In this document: piece after piece, positions 953 through 33,608 of the stretch | How positions within the stretch are numbered: the first letter of the stretch is position 1 | How the letters are laid out: every line of letters starts with the position of its first letter | From: Prevotella sp. | GTDB taxonomy: Bacteria > Bacteroidota > Bacteroidia > Bacteroidales > Bacteroidaceae | DNA length: 33,608 nt | Direction: 5' to 3' | Assembly (NCBI GenBank): GCA_016283605.1 | Contig: JAEENF010000131.1 | Coordinates: 1-33,608 of the forward strand | Notes under the pieces: generated by a model | Told to the model about the DNA's origin: nothing | Seen by the model: only the letters and a program-made list of their open reading frames with translations | The model's database searches: none | Translations under genes and position numbers: made by a program

Positions 953-993
953 AATCTTCAATTTTCAATGTTTAATTGTCAATTATCTATGCT

Positions 994-3066: not shown

Positions 3067-3089
3067 AATTATTCATCATTAATTATTAA

Positions 3090-4817: not shown

Positions 4818-4851
4818 AATTATAGTCTTTTACTTTTCTACTTTTTTTCTG

Positions 4852-7800: not shown

Positions 7801-8235
7801 AAAGGCCTTCATGTCGATGGTCTGTGTGGCATACGATATCTCTCGCTCAGGAATGGCCAGACCACCGCTGTTCAGGCGTTTCTTCGACTTCACCGTCACT
7901 TCCTGCAGGGTGGTTGCCGACTGCATGGTGACCTTATAGCTGTTGCGGTCGATGGCCATTGTCAGCGTCTTGTAGCCTACATAGCTGAACCTCAGTTTGT
8001 CCTTGGGATTACGTATTTTCAGGGTGAAGTTACCGTTAAGATCGGTGGTGGTAGCCTCGATAATACGTTCGTTGCCGTCAATCTCGCATACCGATGCGCC
8101 CATCAGCTCGCCCATATCGTCGCGCACCGAGCCGTGCACGTTGGTAATCTGTGCATTGACGTTGAGGCTGAATAGCAGCGAACAGATAATAAAAATTAAA
8201 TATGTCAGTTTCTTCATATTGCAATCCTTTCTCAC
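4852..8235 (-). CDS. susC: SusC/RagA-family TonB-dependent transporter (start may be the internal Met at 8217)
   Basis: N-terminal carboxypeptidase-regulatory-like domain (VHGSVRDDMGELMGASV...), plug 'VDEALQGRIAGLDIVTNSGNLGAGTTMRLRGASSIS...PLIVVNGN', 'VLKDAAATAIYGSQGANGVIEITTKRG', terminal beta strand ending TLGITVDF. Confidence 0.96.
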   Translation of the reverse strand: MRKDCNMKKLTYLIFIICSLLFSLNVNAQITNVHGSVRDDMGELMGASVCEIDGNERIIEATTTDLNGNFTLKIRNPKDKLRFSYVGYKTLTMAIDRNSYKVTMQSATTLQEVTVKSKKRLNSGGLAIPEREISYATQTIDMKAFEGLGMTTVDEALQGRIAGLDIVTNSGNLGAGTTMRLRGASSISTLSSSNPLIVVNGNTWNVDMANFDASNANDEQFAQLLNVNPEDIASITVLKDAAATAIYGSQGANGVIEITTKRGSRGAPKVTYSLRLTGTYQPKGYEMLSGDDYTMLLKESYFNPQQNDAASNIRELNYDPTFSEFEQYNNNTDWVDAITQFGLRQNHYLSVTGGGEKATFRISGGYDHETGSIIEQRLNRFSTRVALDYYVSERIKISTNFALTYTDNKKNYRPDDQDLLTIAYKKMPNMSIYEQYPVGNALQGQNTGHYYTMLQSANSVFDGNQKSYPNPVAVARLAKYDDRTYDITPELELNYRLLGMDEEHHQLNWQSRVYMNIFNEYVDQFYPQELVTVSWNNGVNKSYTASTKSVAFNTKQTLTYIPHFRNRDHSLMAMARFELTSGSSNGQSTNAEKLASGGITTPIGGGRVTGMGSNYSEWRSMYYTFSTHYAYKGRYMFDFSLRADGTTKFGPDRRWGYFPAVSLRWNIVDEPWFQRLAGTYEKQKPWLSMLSIRPSWGRVGNQPSRDYLYESIYSRDNKYINMGAMKPENIRLTDLRWETTTTWDLGFDLGLFDDRITLQGEWYHSTRRDMLMENVSIPSSTGFYTLSFRNVGSMRNIGWELNLNTNQLIRAGKFTADLNFTLGNNSNEILSMDETVLSSLNSEFHYDNREVLQRVQLYNPFGAIYGFRFKGVYEYQYETFVDMTNEERLQFVADGHTAPYVLSPEGEIVVDDENKPVRMVYNYTHDGTGRNYEFQGGDAIYDDVNYDGQINALDIVYLGSSLPKLTGGFGFTLNYNRWKLNTQFNYRIGNKILNLARLDNEAMITNNNQSKAVNWRWRKEGNQTEIPRAMYGASTNYNTLVSDRFVEDGSFLRLNYLQLSYSFDPKAIKRLLGIKRLSLYASANNLFVLTKYKGVDPEVAYGGYGAAADVGQTPRSKSYTLGITVDF

Positions 8236-8248
8236 TCTTAACTATTCA

Positions 8249-10870: not shown

Positions 10871-10883
10871 GTTTTATTATTTT

Positions 10884-13236: not shown

Positions 13237-13244
13237 CAAAGTTA
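13237..13244 (-). promoter_or_regulatory. Candidate Bacteroidales -7 box (TAACTTTG on minus strand) for the 13193-to-1 operon
   Basis: Plus strand CAAAGTTA is the reverse complement of TAnnTTTG; CAAG about 20 bp away could serve as -33. Confidence 0.5.
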
Positions 13245-13325
13245 GGTCTTTTTATTTTTCCCTGCAAGTAAAATCACAATTAATTTTGAAAAAAGTAATG
13301 TTTTTCACCCCCAAATATAACTATT

Positions 13326-13352
13326 GTCCAAAAAGCTAAAAAAATCGTCTAA
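13326..13352 (-). promoter_or_regulatory. Candidate operator: TTAGAC-N15-TTGGAC on minus strand
   Basis: Plus strand GTCCAA at 13326 and GTCTAA at 13347, 21 bp apart; same architecture as two copies at 26235-26309. Confidence 0.5.
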
Positions 13353-15994: not shown

Positions 15995-16007
15995 CTCTAT
16001 TTAAAGA

Positions 16008-16455: not shown

Positions 16456-16485
16456 ATAAAAAATGAATAAATGGAGAAATTTAAA

Positions 16486-16506
16486 GGCAGCACTTATGGT
16501 GCTGCC
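16486..16506 (-). terminator. Hairpin downstream of the S9 peptidase gene, possible weak terminator
   Basis: GGCAGCAC-TTATG-GTGCTGCC perfect 8-bp stem; minus-strand 3' side is TTTAAATTTC, an imperfect T tract. Confidence 0.55.
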
Positions 16507-16569
16507 CGAGATTGATTATTAAGGTCTTTTTTCTACTAATTTATTACTAACTTTCTATCAACTATTATT

Positions 16570-18681
16570 TCATCTTAAATCTTTCCACTGCGGAGGGTTG
16601 ACACCGAGGAGATGGCGCACGAAGAAATCCTGACGCTTGTGGTCGCCAAAAGCCTCACCCATTGTATGACGAGCTCCAGGAATGACAACAAGTTCAAAAT
16701 CCTTTCCTGCCTTTTCCAAGGCGTTTACCACCTGCATTGTAGATGCTGGATCCACATTATCGTCCATCTCGCCAACCACAAGCATTAACGGTCGTTCAAG
16801 TCTCCAAGCATTTTCAACGTTGGAGCAGGCAACATAACTGCTGTCTACAGGATACGACATCCACTGCTCGTTCCACCATATTTTGTCCATGCGGTTGTCG
16901 TGACAGCCACAGGCGGCATAGGCAGCCTTGTAGAAATCGCCGTGGAAGAGTACGGCGGCAAGGGCGTTCTGTCCTCCGGCAGAGCAGCCATAAATACCAA
17001 CACGGTCGGCATCGATATAGGAATACTTCTGGGTAGCGGCCTTAATCCACGCTTTGCGGTCGGGGAAACCGGCATCCTTGAGGTTCTTGTAGCAAACGGC
17101 CTCAAAATCCTTTGAACGCCACGAGGTGGTCATGGCATCGAGCTGTACGACAATGAATCCGAGCTCAGCAAGTTCGGCCATACCCCAGTACCACTCACGC
17201 CACGACTTGGGAACGTACTGGTCGCCAGGACCTGAGTAGATATACTCGATGATAGGATACTTCTTTGTAGGGTCGAAATTAGAGGGACGCAGGATGATGC
17301 CCCACATGGGGGTAATGCCGTCGCGACCGGGGGCTACGAATACTTCTGGGGCGCGCCAGCCGGATGCTAAAAGGTCGGTGATGTCAGCCGTCTCGAGGGT
17401 CTTAAGGATGCGTCCGTCCTTGGCGGAGCGTAGCACGCTGACGGGGGGATTAGTAACCGTCGAGTAGGTGTCAATCAGGTAGGTAAAGTCATCGGTGAAC
17501 GTAGCGCTATGGTGGCCTTCCTCGGGCGTGAGGCAGGTCAACTGCTTACCATCGATACGAATCTTATAGTAATGTATCAAGTACGGATCTTCCTGCTTGT
17601 TCATACCACAGGCAGAGAAGTAGATGACGCCCTGCTTCTCGTCGACATGCTGGATTTCGCGTACGTTCCACTCGCCCTTTGTGATTTGACGCACCAAGCG
17701 GCTCTCCTGGCTCTCGCGCCCACGGTCGTAAAGATAGATATGGTTATAGTTGTCGCGCTCGCTAGTCCATAGGATGTGGCGACTATCTTCAAGGTCGATA
17801 CGACGTTGACGTGTGTAGTTGACGTAGCGTGGGTCCGTCTCTTCGATAAGGATGCGAACATTGGCCTGCAAGTCCATCTCCAGCACGCGATAAGTCTTGT
17901 GACCACGCTCGTTGAACTCAAAGGTGATAGTCTGCCCATTCTTGTCCCACCGAGGCATCGTCACCTCATACTGATGGGCAAAAAGTGTGGTGGCAGGCTC
18001 TACGACACGCCCCGTAGCCACCTCGATGATGACGGGCACACGATAATTCAGCGAATCACCGGGCTTAGCATACTCCTGTTTATGAAGAATGGGTTCGGTG
18101 CGACCCTTGGGTGACGACTCAATATAGTAGACGTAATGCTTCGGGGCGGGCTTTATGCGCACGGTAGCATAGTAGCGCCCGTCGGGTGAGAACGAGCCCC
18201 ACGATGAATAGTAGTTGTCTGGGGTTCCGTTTGTGGTCAGCACACGACCACTGAACCACAGATTGTTATCCTTATGGTAGATGCTGTCCTTGCCGTCAGG
18301 TGTGCGCTGGACGCCGTCCTTCTCGTCGGGCACTTCCATCCAGTGGCGCTCGGGTTTGCCGTCGGAGGGTCGTGGTGGCTGTGGCAGCTCAGGATTTTCG
18401 GGAAGTAGAGTGACGGTGCGTTTGTCGGCATCGACCTCCTTGTAGACCTCCTTATTGCCGTTCCATACGGAGTACCAGAAGCGATGCGTGCTCGGGACAA
18501 GATGCACACGCACACCGCTATTTTTGGTCTTGCCCGAATAAGTGGTACGCAGACTGTTGGCGCGACGATAATCGTCGAGAGTGCCCTGAGCGCTTATAGT
18601 GAGAAATGAGAAGTGAAAAGTGAAAAACAGGACTATGCCGACCACCTTCACTGCATGCATCTTATTGCTATTGATAATCAT
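16570..18681 (-). CDS. S9 family (DPP4-like) serine peptidase; start revised from 18768 to 18681
   Basis: Beta-propeller-type region ('WTSERDNYNHIYLYD') then alpha/beta hydrolase with 'GIYGCSAGGQNAL' (Ser), 'GEMDDNVDP' (Asp), 'PGARHTMG' (His). Met at 18681 begins MIINSNKMHAVKVVGIVLFFTFHFSFLTISAQ and removes the overlap with the upstream gene. Confidence 0.85.
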   Translation of the reverse strand: MIINSNKMHAVKVVGIVLFFTFHFSFLTISAQGTLDDYRRANSLRTTYSGKTKNSGVRVHLVPSTHRFWYSVWNGNKEVYKEVDADKRTVTLLPENPELPQPPRPSDGKPERHWMEVPDEKDGVQRTPDGKDSIYHKDNNLWFSGRVLTTNGTPDNYYSSWGSFSPDGRYYATVRIKPAPKHYVYYIESSPKGRTEPILHKQEYAKPGDSLNYRVPVIIEVATGRVVEPATTLFAHQYEVTMPRWDKNGQTITFEFNERGHKTYRVLEMDLQANVRILIEETDPRYVNYTRQRRIDLEDSRHILWTSERDNYNHIYLYDRGRESQESRLVRQITKGEWNVREIQHVDEKQGVIYFSACGMNKQEDPYLIHYYKIRIDGKQLTCLTPEEGHHSATFTDDFTYLIDTYSTVTNPPVSVLRSAKDGRILKTLETADITDLLASGWRAPEVFVAPGRDGITPMWGIILRPSNFDPTKKYPIIEYIYSGPGDQYVPKSWREWYWGMAELAELGFIVVQLDAMTTSWRSKDFEAVCYKNLKDAGFPDRKAWIKAATQKYSYIDADRVGIYGCSAGGQNALAAVLFHGDFYKAAYAACGCHDNRMDKIWWNEQWMSYPVDSSYVACSNVENAWRLERPLMLVVGEMDDNVDPASTMQVVNALEKAGKDFELVVIPGARHTMGEAFGDHKRQDFFVRHLLGVNPPQWKDLR

Positions 18682-18688
18682 AATATTC

Positions 18689-21511
18689 CTAATTATATAT
18701 GACAATGTCTCTGAGTTCACCCCACGAGGTGTTGTCGTTGTAGGTGGTCTGATAGACGCCGACGGCAAGCTTGGGACTGGTCACATCAACAGGCGAGCCA
18801 GGCATATTGTTCCAAGTCTGCCCATCACGACTGGTGCGTGCGAAGAGTTTGTTGCCACGACGCTCGAACTGAATGATACGGTCGAATTCGTAACCTCTGT
18901 AGTTGGGATACTGCGGGCGACCATGACGCGAAAGGATGGTGAACATATTGCCGCAGTTGTAGAGCGGGAAGGCGCCGAGCTGGTAAAATACCGACTCTTC
19001 CATAGTTCCTCCCTGCTGAGGGGAGGGAATAGATACCAGAATGCCGACTTCGTTGTAGCCCTTGACGGCATGCTGTTGCAAACCTTCCATATCGGCAATG
19101 GTGGCCATGATAACGAAATCGCCTTCTATCTCTTTCAACTGTTGGGCACCATCTTCCCACGGATGGTCGTTGAAAGAACCACCCTTGGCCGAGAGGTGCA
19201 GTGAAGACTGCTGAACGACGGGCTTCATCGTGGTTGGCAGCGTGAAACGGCTGTCGGGATCGCTCTCATCGAAAGGTTCATCACCCAAGCTTTGAACTTT
19301 GAACTGCTCTGAACTTTGAACCTCATACGACGAACGGATGTCGGCAGCAGAGAGAGCGTAGGGCATGATGTTCAGACTACTGATATAGCCTCGGAAATTG
19401 TTGGCACCACTGCCGTCGGCACCGATGCTGACAGGGCCGTCAGGCCGGACCATCATAAAATTGTTCTGCTCATGAATCAGTTGGCCGTCGAGATAGACGC
19501 GCTCCATCCATCCGTCGAAAGTGACAGTCCACTGATGCCATGAGCCGATGGCCTTCTGGATGGCCTCGGGGGCTCCATAGCTCTCAAACGAGCCATTGTG
19601 ACAGATGAGACCCGTACGCGGATCGCTGCCCAAACGGAACTCGGTTGTGGCCAGATCGGCATGCGACGGCGACAGCGAGGCCACGGTGGCCACTGCCCCA
19701 CCCTCGGTCTGCAACAGCCAGGCACTGATGGTATAAGGCGCGTTATAGCAGAACTCCTGAGGCAGGGGCGCGTTGCTGGTCAAACGCTGCGAACCGTTGA
19801 AGAAGAGGGCCCAGCGACCATCTTTCACGCGAGCGTGGATGGGCTTGTTGGCCTTGAAGCCATTCAGCTCCGTCACATCAAAGGGCGCCTGACGTTGCTT
19901 TGCCTCATGAGACATATCAAAGCCAATGACGGCAGCGGTACGTTGCAGAGGACTCACGTCTTTTTTATGCATGCCTGGATAAGCATCATTGGTCTCGGTG
20001 GGGTCGGGAGGCAACAAAGGCGCCTGCTTCCAAACCTTTACATTCCAGATGGCAGGCATGTGGCCGTTCTTCTGTGTATCGGCAATGGTGATGCGGATGT
20101 AGCGCGCTTTGACATTGCCACGGTCGATCATAGGCGAGCCTTGCATCGTGCTCTGCATACGGTCGGCAAAGAGCGTCCATGTCTGTCCATCTACAGAGGT
20201 TTCTACCTTATACTGATAGAAGAAGGTGGCGTATTCAAATTGCGTCCAGATCTCATTGAAGCGCTGCTTGCTGCCCAGGTCGATCTGGAGCCACTCGTCG
20301 TGATGACGACCACCATTCTGTCCCCAGTTGGTGGCGGAAGCCTTCCATAGCGTGGCGTTGTTGTCATCGACGGCATATTCAGGCCGGAACCACTCGTCGT
20401 AGTACGAGGAAGCCGTCACTTTGGCCTGATAGGCAAGATTGACAGTACCCTTTTCAGTCGCTAGAGGGGCTCCGTGGGTGGGCTCGACGGGAAGGATATC
20501 GCCATTGGCATCAAACTTCATCTCATCGATGGCTATCTGACGGTTGAAGCCGTGAACGGAACGCGGAAGGTTATGACGATGGTAGACAATGTAGTAACGG
20601 CCGTCTTCAACGAGAACGCTGTGGTGGCCAGGACCGTGGATGGAGCCATCACCATTGGTTTTCAGAATGCAGCCCTTATATTCGAAGGGACCCATAGGGC
20701 CTGTTTTCGATATGGCATACTGCACGCGGTAGGTGTCGTCGTGACACGAGCCGGATGAGTAGGTGAAATAGTAGATGCCGTTACGCTTGAAAACATAGGG
20801 CGCCTCGAAGATATCCTTCAGCTCATCGTTGGGTATGAGTTTCTTTTCAGAAAAGAACGTGTCGGCTGCAATGGGGAAGGGGTCGTTTTCATTCCAGAAC
20901 CGGGCGTCGTGGAATTGAGAATTGAGAATTGAGAATTGAGAATTTGCTACCGCCTTGTTTAGTTTAGCCACTCCACAGCCGAAGCCTTTATAGATACCCC
21001 AGGTGGTGAAATAGAGATACTCTGAGCCGTCATCGTCGCGGAACAGCTGCGGGTCGAGAGTGATGGCATTGTGGACGTAGCGGTCGGGCACCATGATGGC
21101 GTCTTCACGGCCTAGGATGTTGTTCCACGGCCCGATGGGCGACGTGCTTTGGCCAATGCTGATGACGCACGGCTCGCAATAGAAATAGCGGTAGGTGCCG
21201 TCGGGCTGCTGAACGACATCAGGTGCCCATACCACCTCGGTGGTGGGCCAGTTCATGACGATATTCTTCCAGTTGCGGAAGTCGTAGGACACCCACACCT
21301 GTGCAGGACCGTAGCCGTTGCCCGTGCCATCGGTAGTAGCATAGAGGTAATAGGTGTCGCCAAACTTACGGATGGTGGGGTCGGCAAAGTAGCCGGGAAC
21401 AAAAGGATTTCCCGCTGAGGGTGTGTTCCATTGGGTGTATCCGGTCTGCCCCTCTGCGACCACCGTTGCAGAGAGAAGCAGAACGCACAAGAAATGCTTT
21501 ACCATGATCAC
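18689..21511 (-). CDS. Glycoside hydrolase family 43 protein with F5/8C-like, LamG-like and C-terminal DUF1349-like modules
   Basis: 'GYFADPTIRKFGDTYYLYATTD', 'VVWAPDVVQQPDGTYRYFYC', 'DIFEAPYVFKRNGIYYFTYSSG' (three GH43 acidic positions); 'AKVTASSYYDEWFRPEYAVDDNNATLW...' discoidin-like; 'YTISAWLLQTEGGAV...WHQWTVTFDGWMERVYLDGQLI' LamG-like. Confidence 0.88.
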   Translation of the reverse strand: MIMVKHFLCVLLLSATVVAEGQTGYTQWNTPSAGNPFVPGYFADPTIRKFGDTYYLYATTDGTGNGYGPAQVWVSYDFRNWKNIVMNWPTTEVVWAPDVVQQPDGTYRYFYCEPCVISIGQSTSPIGPWNNILGREDAIMVPDRYVHNAITLDPQLFRDDDGSEYLYFTTWGIYKGFGCGVAKLNKAVANSQFSILNSQFHDARFWNENDPFPIAADTFFSEKKLIPNDELKDIFEAPYVFKRNGIYYFTYSSGSCHDDTYRVQYAISKTGPMGPFEYKGCILKTNGDGSIHGPGHHSVLVEDGRYYIVYHRHNLPRSVHGFNRQIAIDEMKFDANGDILPVEPTHGAPLATEKGTVNLAYQAKVTASSYYDEWFRPEYAVDDNNATLWKASATNWGQNGGRHHDEWLQIDLGSKQRFNEIWTQFEYATFFYQYKVETSVDGQTWTLFADRMQSTMQGSPMIDRGNVKARYIRITIADTQKNGHMPAIWNVKVWKQAPLLPPDPTETNDAYPGMHKKDVSPLQRTAAVIGFDMSHEAKQRQAPFDVTELNGFKANKPIHARVKDGRWALFFNGSQRLTSNAPLPQEFCYNAPYTISAWLLQTEGGAVATVASLSPSHADLATTEFRLGSDPRTGLICHNGSFESYGAPEAIQKAIGSWHQWTVTFDGWMERVYLDGQLIHEQNNFMMVRPDGPVSIGADGSGANNFRGYISSLNIMPYALSAADIRSSYEVQSSEQFKVQSLGDEPFDESDPDSRFTLPTTMKPVVQQSSLHLSAKGGSFNDHPWEDGAQQLKEIEGDFVIMATIADMEGLQQHAVKGYNEVGILVSIPSPQQGGTMEESVFYQLGAFPLYNCGNMFTILSRHGRPQYPNYRGYEFDRIIQFERRGNKLFARTSRDGQTWNNMPGSPVDVTSPKLAVGVYQTTYNDNTSWGELRDIVIYN
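19290..19320. repeat. Interrupted heptanucleotide repeat (CTTTGAA-type, four units) inside the GH43 gene
   Basis: CTTTGAA CTTTGAA ctg CTCTGAA CTTTGAA; encodes SSEQFKVQS linker on the minus strand. Confidence 0.75.
20915..20942. repeat. Perfect (TTGAGAA)x4 heptanucleotide tandem repeat inside the GH43 gene
   Basis: TTGAGAATTGAGAATTGAGAATTGAGAA read directly; encodes ...ANSQFSILNSQF... on the minus strand. Confidence 0.95.
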
Positions 21512-21518
21512 TATATGT

Positions 21519-24500
21519 TTACTTGATAATCACCTTGCGACCGTTGATGATGTTGATGCCACGCTGGGGCTGGGTGAGACGCTGACCCTGCAGATTATAC
21601 GTGGGACACTGAACGCCGGACATCGAACGCTCTATGGTGTCGATTCCTGTGGTGGGATCGGCATAGTTGACAGAGCGGAGCGTATAGTCAGCCGCAGTGT
21701 CACCCACAGTGACGTGGAAGATGAAGTTGGCGTTGGCAAATGTCTTGGCATTCTTACGGTAACGCAGGGTCTGACGGATGGTGTACTGCGAGCCCTCGGT
21801 GCTCTTGGCCGGATACTGGCCGATGGTGAACGAAAGCTGTGAGGGAGCGAACTCAGAGAACAAATAACCGTCGTTGTAACCCGACACTTTGCCATCGGCA
21901 CTAAACCAGTGGCCATAGCCATTGGCGGTGCTGCCAGACTGAGCCAGCGAACCGTCGGGATTGGCAGCATAGAGACAGATTTTGCCGTTTTGCGGACCAC
22001 GCTCGTCCCATTGTTGCATCTTGTCGTTAATGGCGGTAGGCTGCATCTGGAAAGCAGTGCCCAGGGCAGCGGCATTGCGCCCGCTGATGTTGACAGTCAC
22101 ACCCGTGTAGCCATACTGGCTATTGTCGAGTGGGAAGTGGACATCGTATTCGTAGGTGATGTCGGCAATGGCACGGCCATCAATAGTGGCATCGGCATAC
22201 ACAGTGGCACTGCCCCCAATATCGGTACCTTCGAGCGTGAAGCGGTAAGGCCACATATCGTCATCGGCAATCTTGTCGTCCCAACGGTGACAGATATAGT
22301 CCTTCAATGCCGGGGCTACGACAGCCCACAGGCGACGGACACCTTCGGGCAAGGTGATGGCATACGATTCGGTCTTTGTACCACGTCCCTGACAGTAAAC
22401 CCTGTCTTCAGAGAAATACTGGGTGGTGCCGTTGTCCATCAGGACTACGAAGCCCATGCGGAAGCCTCGCCAGGTGGCATTGCCTTGTGAAGAGGTCTGA
22501 TAACGGCGCTTGCCGTTGGCATCGGACTCAAGGCGCACATATTTCGACTCTCCGTCGAGATACTCTCCAGGGTCGTTGTCCAGCAATTCAGCACCAGGAT
22601 TCAGTGCCGTGAGATTAAATTTCACTTCCGTACCAGCGGCAGGTACTTGTAGGGGAATGACGTTGTAGCCCGTGCCCTGTGGACAGCTTGAAAGTGCCAC
22701 TTGATACGCATCGTCGTTGGTGAGGATGCAGTTGTAGACGAAGTTGCCTATATGCGAGTCACTACGATAGGGACTGCAGACTGTCATATCCCATGTGACG
22801 GCGTGGCATGCGAAGTCGAAATGCAGCTTATAGAGATCGCTGACCGAGAGGTTCTTACACTTCATCAGTGCCATATTGAAATCGGATGCCTTGCCCTGTT
22901 GCTGACCCTCCATTGGCGTGTTCCACACCTGTGCAACGGTGGTGATGTCGTCGTATTTCTCGGTGAGGTAGCTGATGAAGGGGAAAGCCTGGTAGCGGTG
23001 CCACTCATGGTTGAAGGCGTAATTGTGGCTGCGGTTGTAGATGGCCGACATATAGCTCATGTCGAAGAATTCCTGTGGAAAACTCTGCAACGACTGCCAG
23101 TTGGCGGTAGTCTCCCAAATGGTCTGGCCGATACCGTTTTGCAGGTGGAAACCGGTATTGTCGGTATCGGAGTTCTGGTGACCGCTATGCTCAGCGAAAC
23201 ACATATAGTGGAATGAGTGACCTACCTCGTGGGCTACGGCTGAGCCTACGGGCTTGCAGGTGGCGGGGTTGAGCCACAGGGCGTTGATGACAAAGTCGTA
23301 ACCGCCGCCGTAGCAGGTCCACTCGGTGGTGTGGTTCATGAGCACCATCATCTTGTATTTAGCCACGTTAGACATCTCGGGGTCTACGAAGCCCAATTTC
23401 GTGCTTTCAAGCTCGTAGTAATCCTCGCACTGCTGAAGCAGGTAGTCCATGTCGACGTAGTAGAAGTCATCCTTTGGAAGGTCCTTGGGATTGCAAGTGT
23501 AGCCGTTGTCCCAAAAGAGTATGACATTGGCTGACTCCATGGAGCGTGTCTTCGACCACACGTACTGGCCGTCGGGGTCGCTCTCCTTATAGAGGCCTGA
23601 ATTCCAGCGCCACTCCTCGGGGATATAAACTTTCTTATTTGACAATGTCTCTGCCGGTACGGGTATGCCGGCATTAACGTAGTTGATATGTTTCAGACGG
23701 TTCTTAATCCAGGTCTCCATTTTATTCAGTTCAGTGTCGAAGTTTTTGCCGGCAATAGGCCAGCGTTTGGCCTCGCGCTCCAGAGCTCCTGAGGTGCGTA
23801 GTTGCTCGACATACTTCATGCATTCGTTCCAGGCATAGGTGACTAGGGTGTCTTTGCAGGCATCCCATTGCTCCTTATATTGCAGAACAAACTCACGACA
23901 TCCGAAGAGGTCGGTGAAGAAGCGTGGCATATAGGGGTAGTTGCCGTTGCGACGCAAGGGGTTGGTACCCATGACGAGCTCGGTATAGTCGGCAAAGAAG
24001 TCATGCCCATACATATTGCCCCAGTCGAAATCGTAGCCGGCATCGAAGTCCCAAAGAGGTCCCATGAACCACTTACCGTCACCGTCCTTATGCATATAAA
24101 CGGAGCGGGGTGCGTCGAGTTCGACATTATAAACGAACTCCTGAATTTGCAGGTACTTGATGAACGAGGGAATGTCGAGCACTTTCTCGACAGCATTGTA
24201 GTTTTGTACTTTTATGGCTTTCTCGAGTTTGCCGAAGACATTCTTGACGCTGTCGATGGTGTTCGAGGTAAAAAACTCGTCGTCGGGATATTTCACACAG
24301 ACGGGCATCTGGTAGCCTTCGCTCCAGAAATTGTCGCCTGCATCAGGGCTGAGCTCAGGACCATCGTCCTTGTCGAGCTGAATCAGAATGCCGCGCTCGT
24401 CGCTGACGTTGACACGGTTCTTGTTCTGCTGTACCTGTTCGGTAAGCTGATAGACGCCGCGGTATTTGTCGTTGACATATAGTTCAACATAGCGCGTGTG

Positions 24501-24950
24501 GTTGGTGAAAGGCAGTCCCAAGGCCTGACCCATGGCAAACACAAAGGTGTTCATCAGGTCGGTGATGTCGCGGTAGTTAGCCAGCAGCACCCAATTCTTG
24601 GCTTTGGGCAGTCCCAACATCTCGGTTTTCTTGTCGAACTTGAGTCGGTAGGCCTTCTTGGGGTACCATAGGAAACTACTGTTGCCACGGCAACGTATGC
24701 TGGCCGCAGCACTATTGATGTTGGTATACGACTCTTTGCCGTCGAGCGATACCTTACAGGTTTTGTATTCCTCTTTCGAGATAATATCTCCACCGTCGTC
24801 AGTAGTGATGTAAAGGGGATAGACTTGGTAAGGATTCGCCGTTTGTGCAGAGATTCTCATATTCTGGGCAGCAAATAACACTGCTGCCAGCAGGAGAATG
24901 GTTTTGAGGTTGTTATTCATTATTTTTGTAATGTTTTTTATTTCTTGCAT
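21519..24950 (-). CDS. CotH-like domain fused to HEVGH zincin module, DUF4859-like module and T9SS-type tail (start may be MNNNLK at 24920)
   Basis: CotH-like 'SIRCRGNSSFLWYPKKAYRLKFDKK...WVLLANYRDITDLMNTFVFAMGQALG...YVELYVNDKYRGVYQLTEQV'; 'AVAHEVGHSFHY' at 23217-23231 complement; 'GYGHWFSADGKVSGYNDGYLFSEF' DUF4859-like; tail 'YNLQGQRLTQPQRGINIINGRKVIIK'. Confidence 0.82.
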   Translation of the reverse strand: MQEIKNITKIMNNNLKTILLLAAVLFAAQNMRISAQTANPYQVYPLYITTDDGGDIISKEEYKTCKVSLDGKESYTNINSAAASIRCRGNSSFLWYPKKAYRLKFDKKTEMLGLPKAKNWVLLANYRDITDLMNTFVFAMGQALGLPFTNHTRYVELYVNDKYRGVYQLTEQVQQNKNRVNVSDERGILIQLDKDDGPELSPDAGDNFWSEGYQMPVCVKYPDDEFFTSNTIDSVKNVFGKLEKAIKVQNYNAVEKVLDIPSFIKYLQIQEFVYNVELDAPRSVYMHKDGDGKWFMGPLWDFDAGYDFDWGNMYGHDFFADYTELVMGTNPLRRNGNYPYMPRFFTDLFGCREFVLQYKEQWDACKDTLVTYAWNECMKYVEQLRTSGALEREAKRWPIAGKNFDTELNKMETWIKNRLKHINYVNAGIPVPAETLSNKKVYIPEEWRWNSGLYKESDPDGQYVWSKTRSMESANVILFWDNGYTCNPKDLPKDDFYYVDMDYLLQQCEDYYELESTKLGFVDPEMSNVAKYKMMVLMNHTTEWTCYGGGYDFVINALWLNPATCKPVGSAVAHEVGHSFHYMCFAEHSGHQNSDTDNTGFHLQNGIGQTIWETTANWQSLQSFPQEFFDMSYMSAIYNRSHNYAFNHEWHRYQAFPFISYLTEKYDDITTVAQVWNTPMEGQQQGKASDFNMALMKCKNLSVSDLYKLHFDFACHAVTWDMTVCSPYRSDSHIGNFVYNCILTNDDAYQVALSSCPQGTGYNVIPLQVPAAGTEVKFNLTALNPGAELLDNDPGEYLDGESKYVRLESDANGKRRYQTSSQGNATWRGFRMGFVVLMDNGTTQYFSEDRVYCQGRGTKTESYAITLPEGVRRLWAVVAPALKDYICHRWDDKIADDDMWPYRFTLEGTDIGGSATVYADATIDGRAIADITYEYDVHFPLDNSQYGYTGVTVNISGRNAAALGTAFQMQPTAINDKMQQWDERGPQNGKICLYAANPDGSLAQSGSTANGYGHWFSADGKVSGYNDGYLFSEFAPSQLSFTIGQYPAKSTEGSQYTIRQTLRYRKNAKTFANANFIFHVTVGDTAADYTLRSVNYADPTTGIDTIERSMSGVQCPTYNLQGQRLTQPQRGINIINGRKVIIK

Positions 24951-26164
24951 TTAATAGAAAATGTATAGGGAAACTTCAGGTTGTAGAAGCCTTCGTGAAC
25001 TGTTGGGGCTCCCATGACGACCAGATAAAGGTGGCGTAACTGGTGTCCGGAGGGAACGGTAAACGTGTTGCCATTAACGGCTCCGTAGAGCGTCTCGTCA
25101 TTGGTGGTGACACCCACAAAGCCGTAGCGCAGGTTCTTACCGTTAACGCGCACACGGAATGTGCGGGCACTGAGGTCTGTGCGATTGTCCAGAAGGATGG
25201 CGTTGAAGCCATAGCTCTCGAGTGTGTCGACAGGTGCCAGCATGCCCTTACCCTGCGCCTTGAGTTCGGTATCGAAAGTGCAGGCATAGCTGCGTGTCTC
25301 GTTGCGGGCGTGTTGGAAGTCGAAGTTCACCAAGTGCTGGTAGCCTTGTAACATTTCATCGCAGAAAGCCGACTGTGAGAGGCCATAAAGGCGCATATAG
25401 GTAGATGCGGGATCTTCGCCGATACGTCCCTGACGGAACAGTTCGGCAATACTTTTCCGGCCATGTAGATCGCTCCACCACTGGATGACATAGGGTGAAT
25501 GGTAGATGTTCTCCATGTGGAGGAATGCCTTATGAGTGAGCTTCTTGAAGGCCTCAAAATGGTAGTTTTCGTCGGTAAGCCAGTCAGGATTCACCTGCCA
25601 TAGCATCCACTGTGAGGTCATCTCGAAAAATCCTGTACCGCCCCAGCACTGACCGATGCTGTCTGCCATGATCTGTGCCTGGAAGGAGTGTCCCAGTTCG
25701 TGGGCCATACAGTTCATCTTGACATCCTGTATGCGGTTGGGGGCTACCCAAAGTGCCCCGATAAAGTTATCATAGGTACCACCGTAGGCTGTTCCGTCGA
25801 GCGAGTAGTTCACCATTACCATCATTTTGTAGCGATCAGCCTTTGAAGGGCCTGTCACCCAACCCAGCGTATCGCGGAAGAAATGGTAGAAATGTTGTAC
25901 ACGATAGCGCAGGTTGTCCAGGCGGAATGCCATGGGTTTGCCCTCGAGCATTGGCGGATTATTCAGGTCCTGTCCGAAGCCCTTCTCCCACATAAAGATA
26001 AGGTCAGGGGTCTCGATGCTGCGTTGTAGTGACCACTGCGAAGTGTCGGCTCTAAGATTCATACCACGCAAGTCCTCAGGTACATAAATTAACTTATCAC
26101 CGTCGTTAGCCACGAGGGCCATCGAACAGCAAAAAAGCAGTGTTGTTAAGGCAGTCTTTATCAT
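24938..26164 (-). CDS. Secreted putative zincin metallopeptidase, paralogous to the zincin module of the adjacent CotH fusion
   Basis: Signal peptide MIKTALTTLLFCCSMALVA; 'YKMMVMVNYSLDGTAYGGTYDNFIGALWVAPNRIQDVKMNCMAHELGHSFQ' with HELGH at 25688-25702 complement and downstream 'FFEMTSQWMLWQ'. Confidence 0.75.
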   Translation of the reverse strand: MIKTALTTLLFCCSMALVANDGDKLIYVPEDLRGMNLRADTSQWSLQRSIETPDLIFMWEKGFGQDLNNPPMLEGKPMAFRLDNLRYRVQHFYHFFRDTLGWVTGPSKADRYKMMVMVNYSLDGTAYGGTYDNFIGALWVAPNRIQDVKMNCMAHELGHSFQAQIMADSIGQCWGGTGFFEMTSQWMLWQVNPDWLTDENYHFEAFKKLTHKAFLHMENIYHSPYVIQWWSDLHGRKSIAELFRQGRIGEDPASTYMRLYGLSQSAFCDEMLQGYQHLVNFDFQHARNETRSYACTFDTELKAQGKGMLAPVDTLESYGFNAILLDNRTDLSARTFRVRVNGKNLRYGFVGVTTNDETLYGAVNGNTFTVPSGHQLRHLYLVVMGAPTVHEGFYNLKFPYTFSIKCKK

Positions 26165-26195
26165 TGGTTATTGACGTTTGTGACCATTTACGCCA

Positions 26196-26203
26196 CAAAG
26201 GTA
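26196..26203 (-). promoter_or_regulatory. Candidate -7 box TACCTTTG (minus strand) for the 26164-to-16570 operon
   Basis: Plus strand CAAAGGTA is the reverse complement of TAnnTTTG, 32 nt upstream of the start codon. Confidence 0.6.
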
Positions 26204-26234
26204 AGTTATTTAAATGATTTCGAATGAAAAATCT

Positions 26235-26261
26235 GACCAAGAATATGACAAAATCGTCCAA
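26235..26261 (-). promoter_or_regulatory. Candidate operator for the minus promoter (TTGGAC-N15-TTGGTC)
   Basis: Plus strand GACCAA at 26235 and GTCCAA at 26256, 21 bp apart; 32 bp from the minus -7 box edge (26203 to 26235). Confidence 0.55.
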
Positions 26262-26282
26262 AATAGCGCAAAATTCATTGAA

Positions 26283-26309
26283 TTAGACAATATTTCAAAC
26301 ACTTTAGAC
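26283..26309 (+). promoter_or_regulatory. Candidate operator for the plus promoter (TTAGAC-N15-TTAGAC)
   Basis: TTAGAC at 26283 and 26304, 21 bp apart; 32 bp from the plus -7 box edge (26309 to 26341). Confidence 0.58.
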
Positions 26310-26340
26310 TATTTTTTTATGCTGATACCTAATAAATTAC

Positions 26341-26348
26341 TACTTTTG
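26341..26348 (+). promoter_or_regulatory. Candidate -7 box TACTTTTG for the 26366 plus operon
   Basis: Exact TAnnTTTG; identical 8-mer to the one at 13401-13408. Confidence 0.6.
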
Positions 26349-26365
26349 AACCGTGAAGAAAAAAA

Positions 26366-29293
26366 ATGACTGAAAAATATATGAAAAAGAGAATGGTTAC
26401 GGTTCTGGTGTCAGCACTGGTGTGCATAGGGCTATGGGCAGCAGGCAACCGCACGATAACGAGTGTTGAAAGTGTCAGCGTAGAGGCACCCGCAGGTTGT
26501 ACTCCACGCCTACCCTATCAGTTGTGGGTGACCTATGCTGACGGCACGGCTGAATACCGGCAGGTAAAATGGCTTAATTTCTGGGAAGCGACAGAGATGG
26601 CAGAGGCTGACGTTTCCATCAATCCTGTGGGTACAGAGTATAAGGTTCGTGGATTCCTTATCGGTGACAATACGACGCCTAACGGCTTTCCCGTGACGGC
26701 ACAGGTTCGTGTGACCGACAGTTCATGGCACGTGCCCTCGAACATTCCAGTGGCCGAGACGCTGCCATTGGACCAGGTGAGTATTGACGGTGACAACCGT
26801 CTGACATGGAACCGTGACCTGGATATCGATCAGCTCATCAGTCTGCCCGTGAAACAGCAACTGTATAACTATCGCGACACATACGGAATGTCTACAGAGG
26901 GCTATCCTGTGGCCGACGGCTGGGACTCGCCGACAACGAAACTGAAGGGTCACGGATCTGGCCACTATATGTCGGCCATGGCCATGGCTTTTGCCAGTTG
27001 TCAGGATCCTGCAAAGAAGGCCATCTTAAAGAAAAACATCAAAGAGATGGTTGACGTCCTGCGCGAGTGTCAGGAGAAGACCTTTGTGTGGAACGATAAG
27101 TTAGGCCGCTATTGGGAGGCTCGTGACTTTGCCCCTGAGGAGGAACTGAAACAGTTGCAGGGTACGTGGAAGGATTTCGACCGCTACAAGCAGCACTGCG
27201 AACAGTATGGCTACGGCTACCTGAACGCCATTCCAGCCCAGCACTGCGTACTGATAGAAATGTATCGCGCGTACAATAATGAAGAGTGGGTGTGGGCACC
27301 GTATTATTCGGTTCACAAACAGCTGGCAGGTCTAATTGACATTGCCACCTATATCGATGACAAGACCACAGCCCAAAAGGCACTGCTCATAGCTAAGGAT
27401 ATGGGGTTGTGGGTGTGGAACCGACTGCACTATCGTACCTTCGTCAAGAGCGACGGACGCCAGGACGAGCGTCGTTCACGTCCTGGCAACCGCCATGAAA
27501 TGTGGAATATGTATATTGCCGGCGAAGTGGGAGGTATTGCGGAGTCACTGGCACGACTCTCGGAGATGACTGGTAACAAAGAGGAAAAAGCCCACCTGTT
27601 AGAGGCTGCTAACTATTTTGACAGTCCGGCATTCTTCAATCCATTAGCTAAGAATGTAGACGCCATCCGTACGCGCCATGCCAATCAGCATATACCTATG
27701 GTAACTGGTGCGTTGCGCTCGTTCCGTAGCAACAATAATCCGTACTACTATAATCTGGCTCAGAATTTCTGGACTATGATACAGGGGCGCTACCGCTATG
27801 CCATGGGTGGTGTGGGTAATGGTGAAATGTTTCGACAGCCTTATTCACAGATTACTTCGATGGCAAACAACGTCAGCAGTTGGGGCGGGCACATCGTCCC
27901 TGAATCGACTATTAACGAGACGTGCTGTGCCTATAACTTAGCAAAGCTCACCAAGGATCTGAACTGCTTCAATCCTGACGATGCACGCTATATGGACTAC
28001 TACGAGCGCGTGCTTTACAATCAGATTATTGGATCAGTGAATCCCCGTGAGTATCAGACAGTCTACCAGTATGCCGTGGGTATCGATGCCTCGAAACCTT
28101 GGGGTAATGAGACTCCACAGTCTACCTGCTGTGGTGGTACGGGTGTCGAGAACCACGTGAAATATCAGGAGGCAGTTTACTTCGTCAACGATAATACGCT
28201 GTGGGTGGCACTATATATGCCTACGACGGCTAACTGGTCCCAGAAGGGTGTCATCATCCGTCAGGAATGCCAATGGCCTGCTGAGAAGTCGATAATTAAA
28301 GTTCTTAAGAGTCAAGTACCAGAAGCCAAGAGTAGGTTTGCCATGAAACTTCGTGTCCCTTACTGGGCTACTCAAGGATTTGATGTGAAACTGAATGGCA
28401 AAAGTATTGCCAAGCACTATCAACCATCTAGCTATGTCGAGATTCCCACACGCACATGGTCGTCGGAAGATGTAGTTGAGGTCGTGATGCCCTTCACCAA
28501 GCACCTCGATTTCGGTCCTGACAAGATGGAAACGGCTCCTGCTTACGAGGAAGATGGCAAAACGCAGTATACGCCTATGTGGACGGGAGCCTTTATGTAC
28601 GGTCCACTGGTAATGGCTGCTACGGGCATCAGAAACTGGGACGAAGCTACTATTGATGTGCGTAGCGACTTGAGTGATGTGGTGCTCAATGGTGCCAAAG
28701 GCATTACGGGCTATGATGCCAACCTATATACGCTGACGTGGAACGGATGTAATTTTGTTCCTGACTATGCTTGTGACGAACACGCCACCCATTATTTCCG
28801 CATGAACATCCCTTCATCAAACAGTGTAATTGGTGGTACTCTTGCCGATATTGATAAATCGCAACTCCGTGAACTGCTTATTATCGCCAAACAGCGCGTT
28901 GACGAACAGCAGGCATGGAACGCTCTGACAGTAAAGGTACCCGAATACGCTCCTTGGGCTCCGCACGGTTTTGCACGCATGACAGAGCAGATGACGTTGA
29001 CCCAGAGCTGCCTTGAAGCCTCTGACGACAAGTATACTCAAGAGGAAATTGACAAAGCGGCCGGTGCTCTGAATGCTGTTATTAACACCATGCGTCCTGG
29101 CAATCTTGCCGAACTCGAGGATATGCAAGAGCTGTTACAGGTGCTCGACGAGGTGAAGAAGAGCGACCACAAGGATGCCGCAACGCACGAGGCCATCAAC
29201 TATGCCGGTATGGTCATCCGCTATGTCAGCAACGGTAGTGGCACAAGAGATATGATTAATCGTGCAACAAGACAGCTTAGTGAAGTGAAGTGA
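26366..29293 (+). CDS. DUF1680-superfamily (GH146/GH127-like) putative beta-L-arabinofuranosidase with N-terminal Ig-like domain (start may be 26381)
   Basis: 'WDSPTTKLKGHGSGHYMSAMAMAFASC', 'YYSVHKQLAGLIDIATYIDD', 'SSWGGHIVPESTINETCCAYNLAKLTKDL', 'YYERVLYNQIIGS', 'QSTCCGGTGVENHVKYQEAVYF'. Confidence 0.85.
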   Translation: MTEKYMKKRMVTVLVSALVCIGLWAAGNRTITSVESVSVEAPAGCTPRLPYQLWVTYADGTAEYRQVKWLNFWEATEMAEADVSINPVGTEYKVRGFLIGDNTTPNGFPVTAQVRVTDSSWHVPSNIPVAETLPLDQVSIDGDNRLTWNRDLDIDQLISLPVKQQLYNYRDTYGMSTEGYPVADGWDSPTTKLKGHGSGHYMSAMAMAFASCQDPAKKAILKKNIKEMVDVLRECQEKTFVWNDKLGRYWEARDFAPEEELKQLQGTWKDFDRYKQHCEQYGYGYLNAIPAQHCVLIEMYRAYNNEEWVWAPYYSVHKQLAGLIDIATYIDDKTTAQKALLIAKDMGLWVWNRLHYRTFVKSDGRQDERRSRPGNRHEMWNMYIAGEVGGIAESLARLSEMTGNKEEKAHLLEAANYFDSPAFFNPLAKNVDAIRTRHANQHIPMVTGALRSFRSNNNPYYYNLAQNFWTMIQGRYRYAMGGVGNGEMFRQPYSQITSMANNVSSWGGHIVPESTINETCCAYNLAKLTKDLNCFNPDDARYMDYYERVLYNQIIGSVNPREYQTVYQYAVGIDASKPWGNETPQSTCCGGTGVENHVKYQEAVYFVNDNTLWVALYMPTTANWSQKGVIIRQECQWPAEKSIIKVLKSQVPEAKSRFAMKLRVPYWATQGFDVKLNGKSIAKHYQPSSYVEIPTRTWSSEDVVEVVMPFTKHLDFGPDKMETAPAYEEDGKTQYTPMWTGAFMYGPLVMAATGIRNWDEATIDVRSDLSDVVLNGAKGITGYDANLYTLTWNGCNFVPDYACDEHATHYFRMNIPSSNSVIGGTLADIDKSQLRELLIIAKQRVDEQQAWNALTVKVPEYAPWAPHGFARMTEQMTLTQSCLEASDDKYTQEEIDKAAGALNAVINTMRPGNLAELEDMQELLQVLDEVKKSDHKDAATHEAINYAGMVIRYVSNGSGTRDMINRATRQLSEVK

Positions 29294-29329: not shown

Positions 29330-31996
29330 ATGAAAAAAATACTGACCCTTGTCATCAGCATGATAGTTACTTGTGGACAGTTGTCTGCCAAGGACTATAC
29401 ATTGGTTTCGCCCAATGGTAAGAATGAGGTGACCATCAGCAACGGGATCACACTGAAGGTATCGCGGCAGGGTAGAGAGGTTGTTTCCGTCAAGGCCAAC
29501 CTCAACGACCGTGATTTCAAGGTGAAAAATGTGAAAATATCGAAAGTGCTGAAGCATCATGTTAAGGCACCTTTCTACCGCCAGTCTGAGTTTGATGACA
29601 TCTTTCGCCAAGCCATTGTATATATCGACCGCGACCTGACAATGGAGGTACGTGCTTATGATGAGGGCGTGGCCTATAAATTCGTCAACTCAGTGAAGGG
29701 AGAAACCATTATAAAGGATGAAACGGCCGACTTTGTTTTCCCAGAAGACGCCAAAGCCTGGCTCTCGTATTCTACCAATAAAGACAACCCCTATGCTATG
29801 GCATTCCAGAACACCTACGACGAGACCATGCTTAGCAAGGCCAAGGATACGCCAGTCTTTCTGCCTGCAACGGTACAAAGTGGTGGTGTGAAAGTGACCA
29901 TCCTTGAAAGCGACTTGCACTCCTATCCCGGCATGTTCCTTAAGGTCAACGGCATACAACTAAAAGCTACTTTTGCTAAGTATCCCAAGAAAATGGCCTA
30001 CTACAGATGGCGCGGCATGAGCTATGTAGCTGAAACTGAGAACTATATTGCCAAGACGGCAGGAACGGACTGCTTCCCCTGGCGCGTGATGGCAATCACA
30101 GAGAAGGACACAGAAATGCCCACGAACAATCTGGTATATGCTTTGGCACGTGCCAACCAGATAGGCGACACAAGCTGGATCAAACCCGGCAAAGTGGCTT
30201 GGGACTGGTGGAACGATTGGAACTTAAAGGGTGTCGATTTTGAAGCAGGCATCAATACTCGTACGTACGAGTATTATATCGATTTTGCCGCCAAGAATCA
30301 TATCGCATATGTGGTGCTTGACGAGGGATGGTATGACTCTGCCAAGGGTGACATCATGCATGCTGTCAAGGATATTGATCTCAAACATCTCATTAACTAC
30401 GCCCAGCAGAAAGGTGTCGGCATTGTACTCTGGACTGTGTTCAACGTGCTCGACGAACACCTGAAGGAGGCTTGTGAAAGCTATGCTAAGATGGGAATCA
30501 AAGGTTTTAAGGTCGACTTTCTTGACCGTAACGATCAGACGGCTGTCGAGATGGGCGAGCGCATTGCCAAGACGTGTGCACATTATCATCTGTTTCTCGA
30601 CTACCACGGATACTTTACTCCCACAGGTATGAATCGCACTTATCCAAATATTCTGAATTACGAGGGTGTATTCGGAATGGAAGAGTGCCGCTGGGCAAAA
30701 AAGGAAACGGATATACCTCGCTACGATGTGACCTTTCCTTATATCCGAGGGATGGCAGGCAATGTTGACTTCACACCAGGTGCCATGCGTAACGGTACGA
30801 AAAACAACTGGGTAGAATGCTACCAAAACCCAGTTTCAATGGGTACGCGCTGTCACCAGTTGGCCTGTTACGTGCTGCATGATTCTCCCTTCACTATGCT
30901 ATGTGACGCGCCCACGAACTACGAGCGGGAGCAAGAATGCACAGATTTGATAACGAGTATACCAGACACATTCGATGAAACAAGGGTCTTGCAAGGTCAA
31001 ATAGGAAGTTATATTGTCACTGCTCGCCGTAAAGATAACGACTGGTATGTAGGTGGACAAGCGAACTGGGACGGGAAGGGAATCGAACTGTCTCTCGACT
31101 TCTTAAATCCTAGTGAAACTTATGAAGCAACTATCGTCTCCGATGGTGTAAATGCAAATCATAATGCTGAGGACTATGATATACAAGTAAAATATGTCAA
31201 AGCATCCGACAAATTAAATATCCGTATGGCATCTGGCGGAGGATTTCTTATTATATTCAAATGCCTCCAGTCTGGTGCAATTCAGCCTGTACCTTCAGGA
31301 AAAAGTATTCCAGACTTCTACAAAAAATATTTAGAGGCATACGGTCTCTACATTACCTCATCAGAAAAAGTCCGAAACGAGGCATTGCTACAAGCACGCG
31401 ACATTATGACACTCATGTTGGCTAAACGTCCTGACATCAAACAATATATGGCAAAACGAGGCTGTCACGTAATGGTCATCGGTGAGCAAGAAAAAACTTG
31501 TGACCTACCAGAATATTCACATTTATGTGATACACCAGAACATATCGCCTATTGGAACAAAAGGGCCAGAGGATTTGGCGGTGCACCAGAGGACGACTTG
31601 TCTTCGAGCTGTGGTGAAGAAAATCTCTTGGCTTTGCCTGGCGATCGTTACGAAGGAGAAAACATATTAATCCATGAATTCGCTCATCTGATTCATACAA
31701 TTGGTTTATTGGGGGTAGAACCCGATTTTAATCAAAAACTTGATGAAGTAATGAATCATGCAAAAAAGAATCATTTATGGGAAAACACTTATGCACTCAC
31801 TGACCGTTACGAGTATTTTGCAGAATGTGTACAATCATTCTTCAACTGCAATCGATATTCAAATCCAGCTAACGGAGTCCACAATGACATAAACAGACGA
31901 GACAAACTTAAGTCATACGATCCTATGATGTACCAACTACTATTAAATTATTTTAATGAAACAGATATTCCTATTAAAAACAAAATTCATGAATAA
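29330..31996 (+). CDS. GH97 glycoside hydrolase with fused C-terminal HEFAH zincin-like module
   Basis: GH97: 'LVSPNGKNEVTISNG', 'WWNDWNLKGVDFEAGINTRTYEYYIDFAAKNHIAYVVLDEGWYD', 'GIKGFKVDFLDRNDQ', 'LFLDYHGYFTPTGMNRTYPNILNYEGVFGMEE', 'NWVECYQNPVSMGTRCHQLACYVLHDSPFTMLCDAPTNYE'. C-terminal about 244 aa: 'ENILIHEFAHLIHTIGL...ALTDRYEYFAECVQSFF' (H at aa 782, E at aa 832). Confidence 0.88.
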   Translation: MKKILTLVISMIVTCGQLSAKDYTLVSPNGKNEVTISNGITLKVSRQGREVVSVKANLNDRDFKVKNVKISKVLKHHVKAPFYRQSEFDDIFRQAIVYIDRDLTMEVRAYDEGVAYKFVNSVKGETIIKDETADFVFPEDAKAWLSYSTNKDNPYAMAFQNTYDETMLSKAKDTPVFLPATVQSGGVKVTILESDLHSYPGMFLKVNGIQLKATFAKYPKKMAYYRWRGMSYVAETENYIAKTAGTDCFPWRVMAITEKDTEMPTNNLVYALARANQIGDTSWIKPGKVAWDWWNDWNLKGVDFEAGINTRTYEYYIDFAAKNHIAYVVLDEGWYDSAKGDIMHAVKDIDLKHLINYAQQKGVGIVLWTVFNVLDEHLKEACESYAKMGIKGFKVDFLDRNDQTAVEMGERIAKTCAHYHLFLDYHGYFTPTGMNRTYPNILNYEGVFGMEECRWAKKETDIPRYDVTFPYIRGMAGNVDFTPGAMRNGTKNNWVECYQNPVSMGTRCHQLACYVLHDSPFTMLCDAPTNYEREQECTDLITSIPDTFDETRVLQGQIGSYIVTARRKDNDWYVGGQANWDGKGIELSLDFLNPSETYEATIVSDGVNANHNAEDYDIQVKYVKASDKLNIRMASGGGFLIIFKCLQSGAIQPVPSGKSIPDFYKKYLEAYGLYITSSEKVRNEALLQARDIMTLMLAKRPDIKQYMAKRGCHVMVIGEQEKTCDLPEYSHLCDTPEHIAYWNKRARGFGGAPEDDLSSSCGEENLLALPGDRYEGENILIHEFAHLIHTIGLLGVEPDFNQKLDEVMNHAKKNHLWENTYALTDRYEYFAECVQSFFNCNRYSNPANGVHNDINRRDKLKSYDPMMYQLLLNYFNETDIPIKNKIHE

Positions 31997-33608
31997 AAGA
32001 GCAACAACAATGGTGCTGGGGCTAATGGTGATTCTGTTGGCCTTCGCACAAGAAAAACAGACCACAGCGAACGGGTACCCCATCGATCCCATTCCGTTTA
32101 CGAGTGTCAAGATAACCTCTGGCACGTTCTGGGGACAACGATTGGATGCCAGTCGTAAGGTCACTATTCCTCTTGCTTTCTCTAAATGTGAGAGCGAAGG
32201 GCGTTACAAGAACTTTGAGAACGCTGCAGCACACCTCGAAGATCCTTCAAAAGTGTTTAAGGTCAATGGCGTGGGCTATTCTTTTGATGACACCGATCCC
32301 TATAAGACGCTTGAGGGAGCTGCTTACATCCTTCAGACCTATCCAGATAAACGCCTGGAGGCTTACTGTGACTCTGTCATTGATATCATTGGGAAAGCAC
32401 AAGAGCCGGACGGTTATCTCTACACTTCCCGTACCCAGAACCCAGCCGACCCTCACCACTGGGCTGGCGATCGTCGATGGGTGAAGGAGGAAGACCTGAG
32501 CCATGAACTTTACAACCTCGGTCACATGGTAGAGGGTGCCGTAGCTTATTGGCAGGCGACAGGCAAACGTAAGTTCCTGGACATTGCCAGTCGCTACGCT
32601 GATGTGGCATGTAAGGAGGTGGGGCCTCTTCCCGGGCAGATGCGCGTCGTTCCTGGCCACCAGATAGCAGAAATGGCCATGGCACGTCTCTATCTGGCTA
32701 CTGGCAAGAAGAAATACCTTGACTTTGCCAAATTCCTTCTCGACCATCGCGGAAAGACAGAGATTAAGACCGAATACTCGCAAAGCCACAAACCTGTAGT
32801 TGAACAGGACGAAGCTGTAGGTCATGCTGTCCGAGCTGCCTATATGTATGCCGGTATGGCCGATGTGGCCGCTCTTACGGGTGATCAACACTATATCAAA
32901 GCTATCGATACCATTTGGGACAATATTGTCTCCAAGAAACTATATATTACAGGAGGCATTGGTGCTACAGCCAGCGGTGAGGCCTTTGGCAAGAATTATG
33001 AACTACCCAACATGAGTGCCTATTGCGAGACCTGTGCAGCCATTGGTAATGTGTATGTAAACTACCGCCTATTCCTATTACATGGTGAGTCAAAATATTA
33101 CGACGTCCTGGAAAGAACACTCTACAACGGACTTATCAGTGGTGTATCACTCGAAGGTAATGGTTTCTTCTATCCTAACCCCTTGGAGTCGATGGGACAG
33201 CATCAGCGCCAAGCATGGTTCGGCTGCGCTTGTTGTCCAAGCAATATCTGCCGGTTTATTCCCTCTGTGCCCGGTTATGTCTACGCTGTTAAAGATCGTA
33301 ATGTCTACGTTAATCTGTTCCTTTCAAACAAGAGCAATCTGAACGTAGCAGGCAAGAAAGTGAGTCTGAGTCAGGCAACAGAGTATCCTTGGAATGGTGA
33401 TATTACTATTTCGATAGACAAGAATGCTGCAGGACAATTTGCCATGAAAATCCGTATCCCAGGCTGGTTGCGTGGTCAAGTGGTTCCCTCAGATCTCTAT
33501 CAGTATTCTGACAATAAGCGTTTGGGCTACACTATAAAGGTAAACGGACAAGAGGTGGCTGCAAATTTGACTCAGGATGGCTATTATACCATTTACCGTA
33601 AATGGAAG
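31989..33608 (+). CDS. GH127 putative beta-L-arabinofuranosidase, C-terminus cut by window edge
   Basis: MNKRATTMVLGLMVILLAFAQEKQTTANGYPIDPIPFTSVKITSGTFWGQRLDASRKVTI...; 'YCETCAAIGNVYVNYRLFLLHGESKYYDVLERTLYNGLISGVSLEGNGFFYPNPLES...WFGCACCPSNICRF'; 540 codons open to window end. Missing from ORF track because no stop lies in the window. Confidence 0.92.
   Translation, partial: MNKRATTMVLGLMVILLAFAQEKQTTANGYPIDPIPFTSVKITSGTFWGQRLDASRKVTIPLAFSKCESEGRYKNFENAAAHLEDPSKVFKVNGVGYSFDDTDPYKTLEGAAYILQTYPDKRLEAYCDSVIDIIGKAQEPDGYLYTSRTQNPADPHHWAGDRRWVKEEDLSHELYNLGHMVEGAVAYWQATGKRKFLDIASRYADVACKEVGPLPGQMRVVPGHQIAEMAMARLYLATGKKKYLDFAKFLLDHRGKTEIKTEYSQSHKPVVEQDEAVGHAVRAAYMYAGMADVAALTGDQHYIKAIDTIWDNIVSKKLYITGGIGATASGEAFGKNYELPNMSAYCETCAAIGNVYVNYRLFLLHGESKYYDVLERTLYNGLISGVSLEGNGFFYPNPLESMGQHQRQAWFGCACCPSNICRFIPSVPGYVYAVKDRNVYVNLFLSNKSNLNVAGKKVSLSQATEYPWNGDITISIDKNAAGQFAMKIRIPGWLRGQVVPSDLYQYSDNKRLGYTIKVNGQEVAANLTQDGYYTIYRKWK

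Follow-up and report, generated by a model that had tools for sequence, protein, structure and literature searches.

Mirrored direct-repeat operators and a candidate hybrid two-component regulator in a Prevotella polysaccharide utilization locus

Genes and operator sites of the locus

The window analysed here is a contig stretch of 33,608 nucleotides from a Prevotella draft genome. The Pfam domains of its gene products identify it as a polysaccharide utilization locus (PUL), and the presence of GH127, GH43 and GH97 proteins suggests arabinose-containing plant glycans as the class of substrate. The loci described in a transcriptome study of Xylanibacter ruminicola (PMC11107044) could not be matched to it. 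The features of the window are listed below.

2..13193, minus strand: operon downstream of the third operator (769-aa protein, fasciclin-like, SusC, SusD, two fasciclin-domain proteins)
13237..13244, minus strand: likely -7 box of the SusC/SusD operon, TAACTTTG, N81 from the third operator
13315..13352, minus strand: third operator, of the same kind, preceding the SusC/SusD operon (core 13352-13326; model match, E 1.2e-7)
16570..18768, minus strand: DPP IV-type S9 peptidase (Pfam)
18689..21511, minus strand: GH43 protein with F5/8 type C and laminin-G-like domains (Pfam)
21519..24950, minus strand: CotH kinase - DUF6055 - DUF4859 protein (Pfam)
24938..26164, minus strand: DUF6055 protein, first gene of the minus operon (Pfam, E 1.4e-100)
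26196..26203, minus strand: -7 box of the minus promoter, TACCTTTG, at N31 (sequence and genome pattern search)
26224..26261, minus strand: minus operator, distal unit 26261-26245, proximal unit 26240-26224 (sequence, genome-model match)
26262..26282, no strand: 21-bp gap separating the back-to-back operators (length kept in relatives, sequence not)
26283..26320, plus strand: plus operator, two direct 17-bp units 21 bp apart (sequence, genome-model match, conserved in relatives); from the sequence, distal unit 26283-26299, proximal unit 26304-26320
26341..26348, plus strand: -7 box of the plus promoter, TACTTTTG, N31 from the proximal TTAGAC
26366..29293, plus strand: GH127-family protein, first gene of the plus operon (Pfam)
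29330..31996, plus strand: GH97 glycoside hydrolase (Pfam)
31956..33608, plus strand: second GH127-family protein, running off the contig (Pfam)

The initial annotation had placed a core TTAGAC-N15-TTAGAC at 26283-26309 on the plus strand and a core TTGGAC-N15-TTGGTC at 26261-26235 on the minus strand; letters and coordinates of both are exact, as verified on the sequence and by genome pattern search. Their description as outward-facing direct repeats with a 21-bp period in both operators was likewise confirmed from the sequence. The spacing between operator and -7 box is equal on the two sides, as had been proposed, but consists of 31 bases, the reported 32 being a coordinate difference. Two further elements were absent from that description. 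One is the third operator, 13352-13326 on the minus strand. The other is the full length of the half-site, which, in the relatives' sites, extends beyond TTRGWC to 17 bp: an extended unit of approximately TTRGACGATWNTTKYAT, repeated at 20-22 bp, is common to the sites of relatives across the genus. In sites collected by the composite search described below, this unit contains near-invariant positions lying outside the search pattern.

The TAnnTTTG sequence is the -7 consensus of promoters read by the primary sigma factor of Bacteroidetes (PMC7366714), and both promoters of the window carry it (TACTTTTG at 26341, TACCTTTG at 26203). No TTTG, as expected of a -33 box, was seen within the 30 bp preceding the -7 box in either of the two; the tail of the operator lies approximately there.

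The gene of a protein with four DUF4859 domains (13472-15910) is divergent from the SusC/SusD operon. It has a TACTTTTG box at 13401, its own operator being absent within the window; a homologue in genome G054 does have an operator (N92). Between two convergent genes lies a noncoding region (15912-16560, about 650 bp) in which short repeats abound.

Occurrence of the operator in the genome and across the genus

The composite pattern TTRGWC-N15-TTRGWC-N28..34-TAnnTTTG matches the 2,682,477-bp draft genome exactly twice, at the two mirrored sites, whereas the reversed control of the pattern has no match in the same genome; a rough estimate from base frequencies gives about 0.01 chance matches per genome. 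TTRGWC-N15-TTRGWC, the short core by itself, shows no genome-wide enrichment (43/44 matches versus 180/134 for the reversed control, at most one mismatch allowed), as would be expected of repeats arising by chance in AT-rich intergenic DNA, and the case therefore depends on the composite together with its position and conservation. Simple repeats of the TTTAGACTATAGA type (G000:C261:2036-2289) also match the short core and are not operator-like in appearance.

A sequence model was built out of sample, from 32 sites all belonging to other species, and scanned over the whole genome. The three best matches are the plus operator (26283-26348, plus strand, E 1.6e-10), the minus operator (26261-26193, minus strand, E 2.5e-8) and the third operator (13352-13295, minus strand, E 1.2e-7); the fourth is far weaker (E 9.7e-4). 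This ranking contradicts an origin by chance, as do the absence of control matches for the composite and the conservation across species reported below, which makes that explanation extremely improbable. The scan gives three strong sites at one locus only, so that the genome-wide regulon implied by the initial annotation is too wide.

When 399 genomes of the genus were searched with the composite, 25 places were found in 24 genomes, versus six for the control, and most of the 25 precede homologues of the genes in the window. The named relatives are rumen and other gut Prevotella, Xylanibacter ruminicola, Prevotella communis and Hallella seregens. In the fetched loci, the spacing of unit pairs has a sharp peak at 20-22 bp (20 bp, n=8; 21 bp, n=35; 22 bp, n=3); the same loci, reversed, contain about one unit pair per spacing or none. 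Sites with a 20-bp period (G129, G178, G054) are recovered by a two-unit scan and missed by a weight matrix fixed at 21 bp.

Within the PUL regions of 23 genomes, which were selected for holding PUL genes, 48 of the 49 called sites, a few of them overlapping, directly precede PUL genes; the exception is an operator whose downstream gene was missed by the ORF picker. Among the 55 listed sites of other genomes, the -7 box stands at N31 in 34 and at N32 in 5. TAnnTTTG is absent at 30-32 in the remaining 16, which include promoters of the SusC/SusD type and promoters with a weaker box.

At the SusC/SusD operons, the distance between operator and -7 box is 81 bp in the window and in G063, G009, G097 and G121, 92-93 bp in G129, G178, G047, G054 and G326, and 71 bp in G041. 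These distances differ by steps of about one helical turn. In SusC/SusD operons (13240-13300 in the window; also in loci L147, L148, L151 and L152), the stretch from the third operator to the -7 box contains a recurrent CTTGCA-like element (CTTGCAAGG, CTTGCAGGG), which may be a -33-type box or the site of another regulator.

A different direct repeat, TTGGACAAAA..., with a 21-bp period and an equal distance to the -7 box, was seen outside loci of the window type, in L098 (G247), L104 (G108), L103 and L106; it is possibly the operator of a sister hybrid two-component regulator.

The candidate regulator and its proposed action

The candidate regulator is a hybrid two-component system (HTCS) protein with an AraC-type HTH, encoded at C213:5847-9854. 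Its domains (Reg_prop, Y_Y_Y, HisKA, HATPase_c, Response_reg and HTH_18) follow the one-protein HTCS architecture with its periplasmic propeller sensor, and it carries the phospho-acceptor histidine and aspartate contexts as well as the SHIP motif, which has been linked to phosphorylation-controlled DNA binding (PMC11253607). The end of contig C213 overlaps the first 230 bp of the window with 99.6% identity and one mismatch, an assembly overlap rather than closed sequence. The SusC/SusD operon continues there with genes for a fasciclin, SusC2, SusD2 and an M61 peptidase, the HTCS gene being the last. The link between HTCS and susC/susD genes, made here through the C213 overlap, is found as an uninterrupted order in G121, G178, G326 and G047; gene order in the relatives is much alike, with DUF6055 often replacing the M61 peptidase.

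The next-best homologues of the same genome are far weaker matches. The DNA-reading helices are near-identical among the HTCSs of these PULs, and unlike those of other HTCSs. With a threshold of at least 45% identity, an HTCS orthologue was detected in most genomes bearing the locus, versus one (46% identity) of the 24 tested genomes without it. G059 and G173 have neither detectable sites nor an HTCS orthologue; in G157 the HTCS match is partial (42%), and G045 has a match of 46% without the DUF6055 marker.

On these grounds, the region is very probably a shared control point of the PUL, at which the HTCS would activate both divergent operons together with the SusC/SusD operon. Co-control of the two divergent operons had been suggested in the initial annotation; it is supported by the mirrored pair being kept in different species, next to several different flanking gene pairs.

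It is improbable, though conceivable, that a different regulator, either a stand-alone AraC-type or a SusR-like protein, binds the repeats, the HTCS being merely a neighbour. AraC-type proteins likewise recognise direct repeats with a spacing of about 21 bp, and two draft genomes, G357 and G097, have sites while no HTCS orthologue was found among the 16 candidates scored in each. Yet no other regulator gene was recognised beside the sites among the ORFs searched for domains, and in 17 genomes the HTCS is found again inside the locus, while three others have it on the same contig, which is its position in G129. In two genomes an operator with a 20-bp period directly precedes the HTCS gene (G267:C1:3398033 and G067:C1:55866), pointing to a probable autoregulation. 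Of the regulator types named initially, the hybrid two-component one is supported, by the presence of an HTCS in the locus and by the 20-22-bp period. SusR-like regulators resemble the present system in activating PUL operons through direct repeats; they were rejected on spacing, since SusR repeats are published with a distance of 67 or 77 bp (PMC3878776), unlike the 20-22 bp seen here.

Under regulation by the HTCS, this protein, whose gene is the last of the SusC/SusD operon, would sense a periplasmic oligosaccharide and phosphorylate its own receiver domain; the AraC-type DNA-binding domain would then be released and bind the 21-bp direct repeats as a dimer, one dimer for each mirrored operator at the divergent promoter. 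The end of each proximal half-site is separated by 20 bp from the -7 box and falls approximately at the expected place of a -33 box, so that direct recruitment of RNA polymerase by the bound protein is probable, in a manner that may be class II-like by analogy with other activators. The same HTCS, on the third operator, would activate the SusC/SusD-HTCS operon from further upstream, by the same analogy class I-like. Since the HTCS gene ends this operon, positive feedback is predicted.

In enterobacteria, activators of the AraC and CRP type work as class I or class II from sites that abut the promoter or step by a helical turn. The operators described here share these arrangements, and differ in the Bacteroidetes sigma factor with its -7 box, and in that a single membrane protein unites the sensor with the kinase and the regulator. 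Closer at hand are the HTCS regulons of Bacteroides. Their motifs are direct repeats averaging 21 bp, bound by a dimer with its monomers on one face of the DNA (PMC3878776); HTCS_Man of Bacteroides thetaiotaomicron, for instance, has two 16-bp sites with a 5-bp spacer (Ravcheev et al. 2013, PMC3878776). Direct-repeat HTCS operators being published for Bacteroides, the kind of operator is already known. The B. thetaiotaomicron regulons also share the AraC-type HTH in a hybrid protein and the restriction to PULs. Unlike them, the present case concerns another genus and locus, with a unit sequence derived here; its mirrored operators, phased gap and two fixed kinds of operator-promoter distance were not met with in the papers searched. 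What is new is a well-defined Prevotella member of this kind, with spacing details for which no description was found in open-access papers.

Among the regulators of fibre-digestion loci in Bacteroidetes, HTCS proteins form a major class; the operator is known for few of them and promoter engagement has been little studied. Here, sensor, operator unit, targets and fixed promoter distances are predicted jointly across one genus. The spacing rules thus become directly testable, and offer a route to assigning operators to other Prevotella HTCS genes.

Spacing of the mirrored operators

Across 11 species, the gap between the mirrored operators, which the initial annotation did not consider, measures 11, 21-22 or 43-44 bp. 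It is 21 bp in the window, G157, G067, G022, G333, G151 and G357, 22 bp in G094, 11 bp in G121, where one half is degenerate, 43 bp in G047, as measured from the N31 operator and with a degenerate third unit inside, and 44 bp in G326. Here too the step is of about one helical turn. Treated as circular data with a period of 10.5 bp, the gaps gave R 0.93 and a p-value of 5e-6 against uniform gaps, or 5e-5 after collapsing by flanking gene pair; both p-values are optimistic, because related species are not independent.

The phasing of the gap suggests a possible contact between two dimers. The mirrored operators may tentatively be regarded as one unit, on which two touching HTCS dimers, placed whole helical turns apart, would fire both promoters; if true, this would be a phase-locked four-site array. 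Mirrored or phased HTCS operators were not found described in open-access papers, and such an array would be new for these regulators. There is about an even chance that the two operators are instead independent, the constant gap reflecting shared ancestry or the steric room required by two polymerases rather than interaction; this reading concerns the gap only and is compatible with regulation by the HTCS. Orthology among several of the mirrored promoters means that their gaps are not fully independent, and two separate dimers need no more than the four half-sites. On the other hand, the gap sequences are unrelated (mean identity 30%, versus 27% after shuffling), and yet the lengths are held across six kinds of flanking gene pair. 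Leaders of the same kind of promoter, unlike the gap, range from about 4 to 87 bp, as roughly estimated from the distance to the first long-open ATG.

A search of the 399 genomes with the gap left free between 6 and 36 bp returned three mirrored places with four half-sites, having gaps of 21, 21 and 22 bp and all belonging to this locus; the reversed control matched two other genomes.
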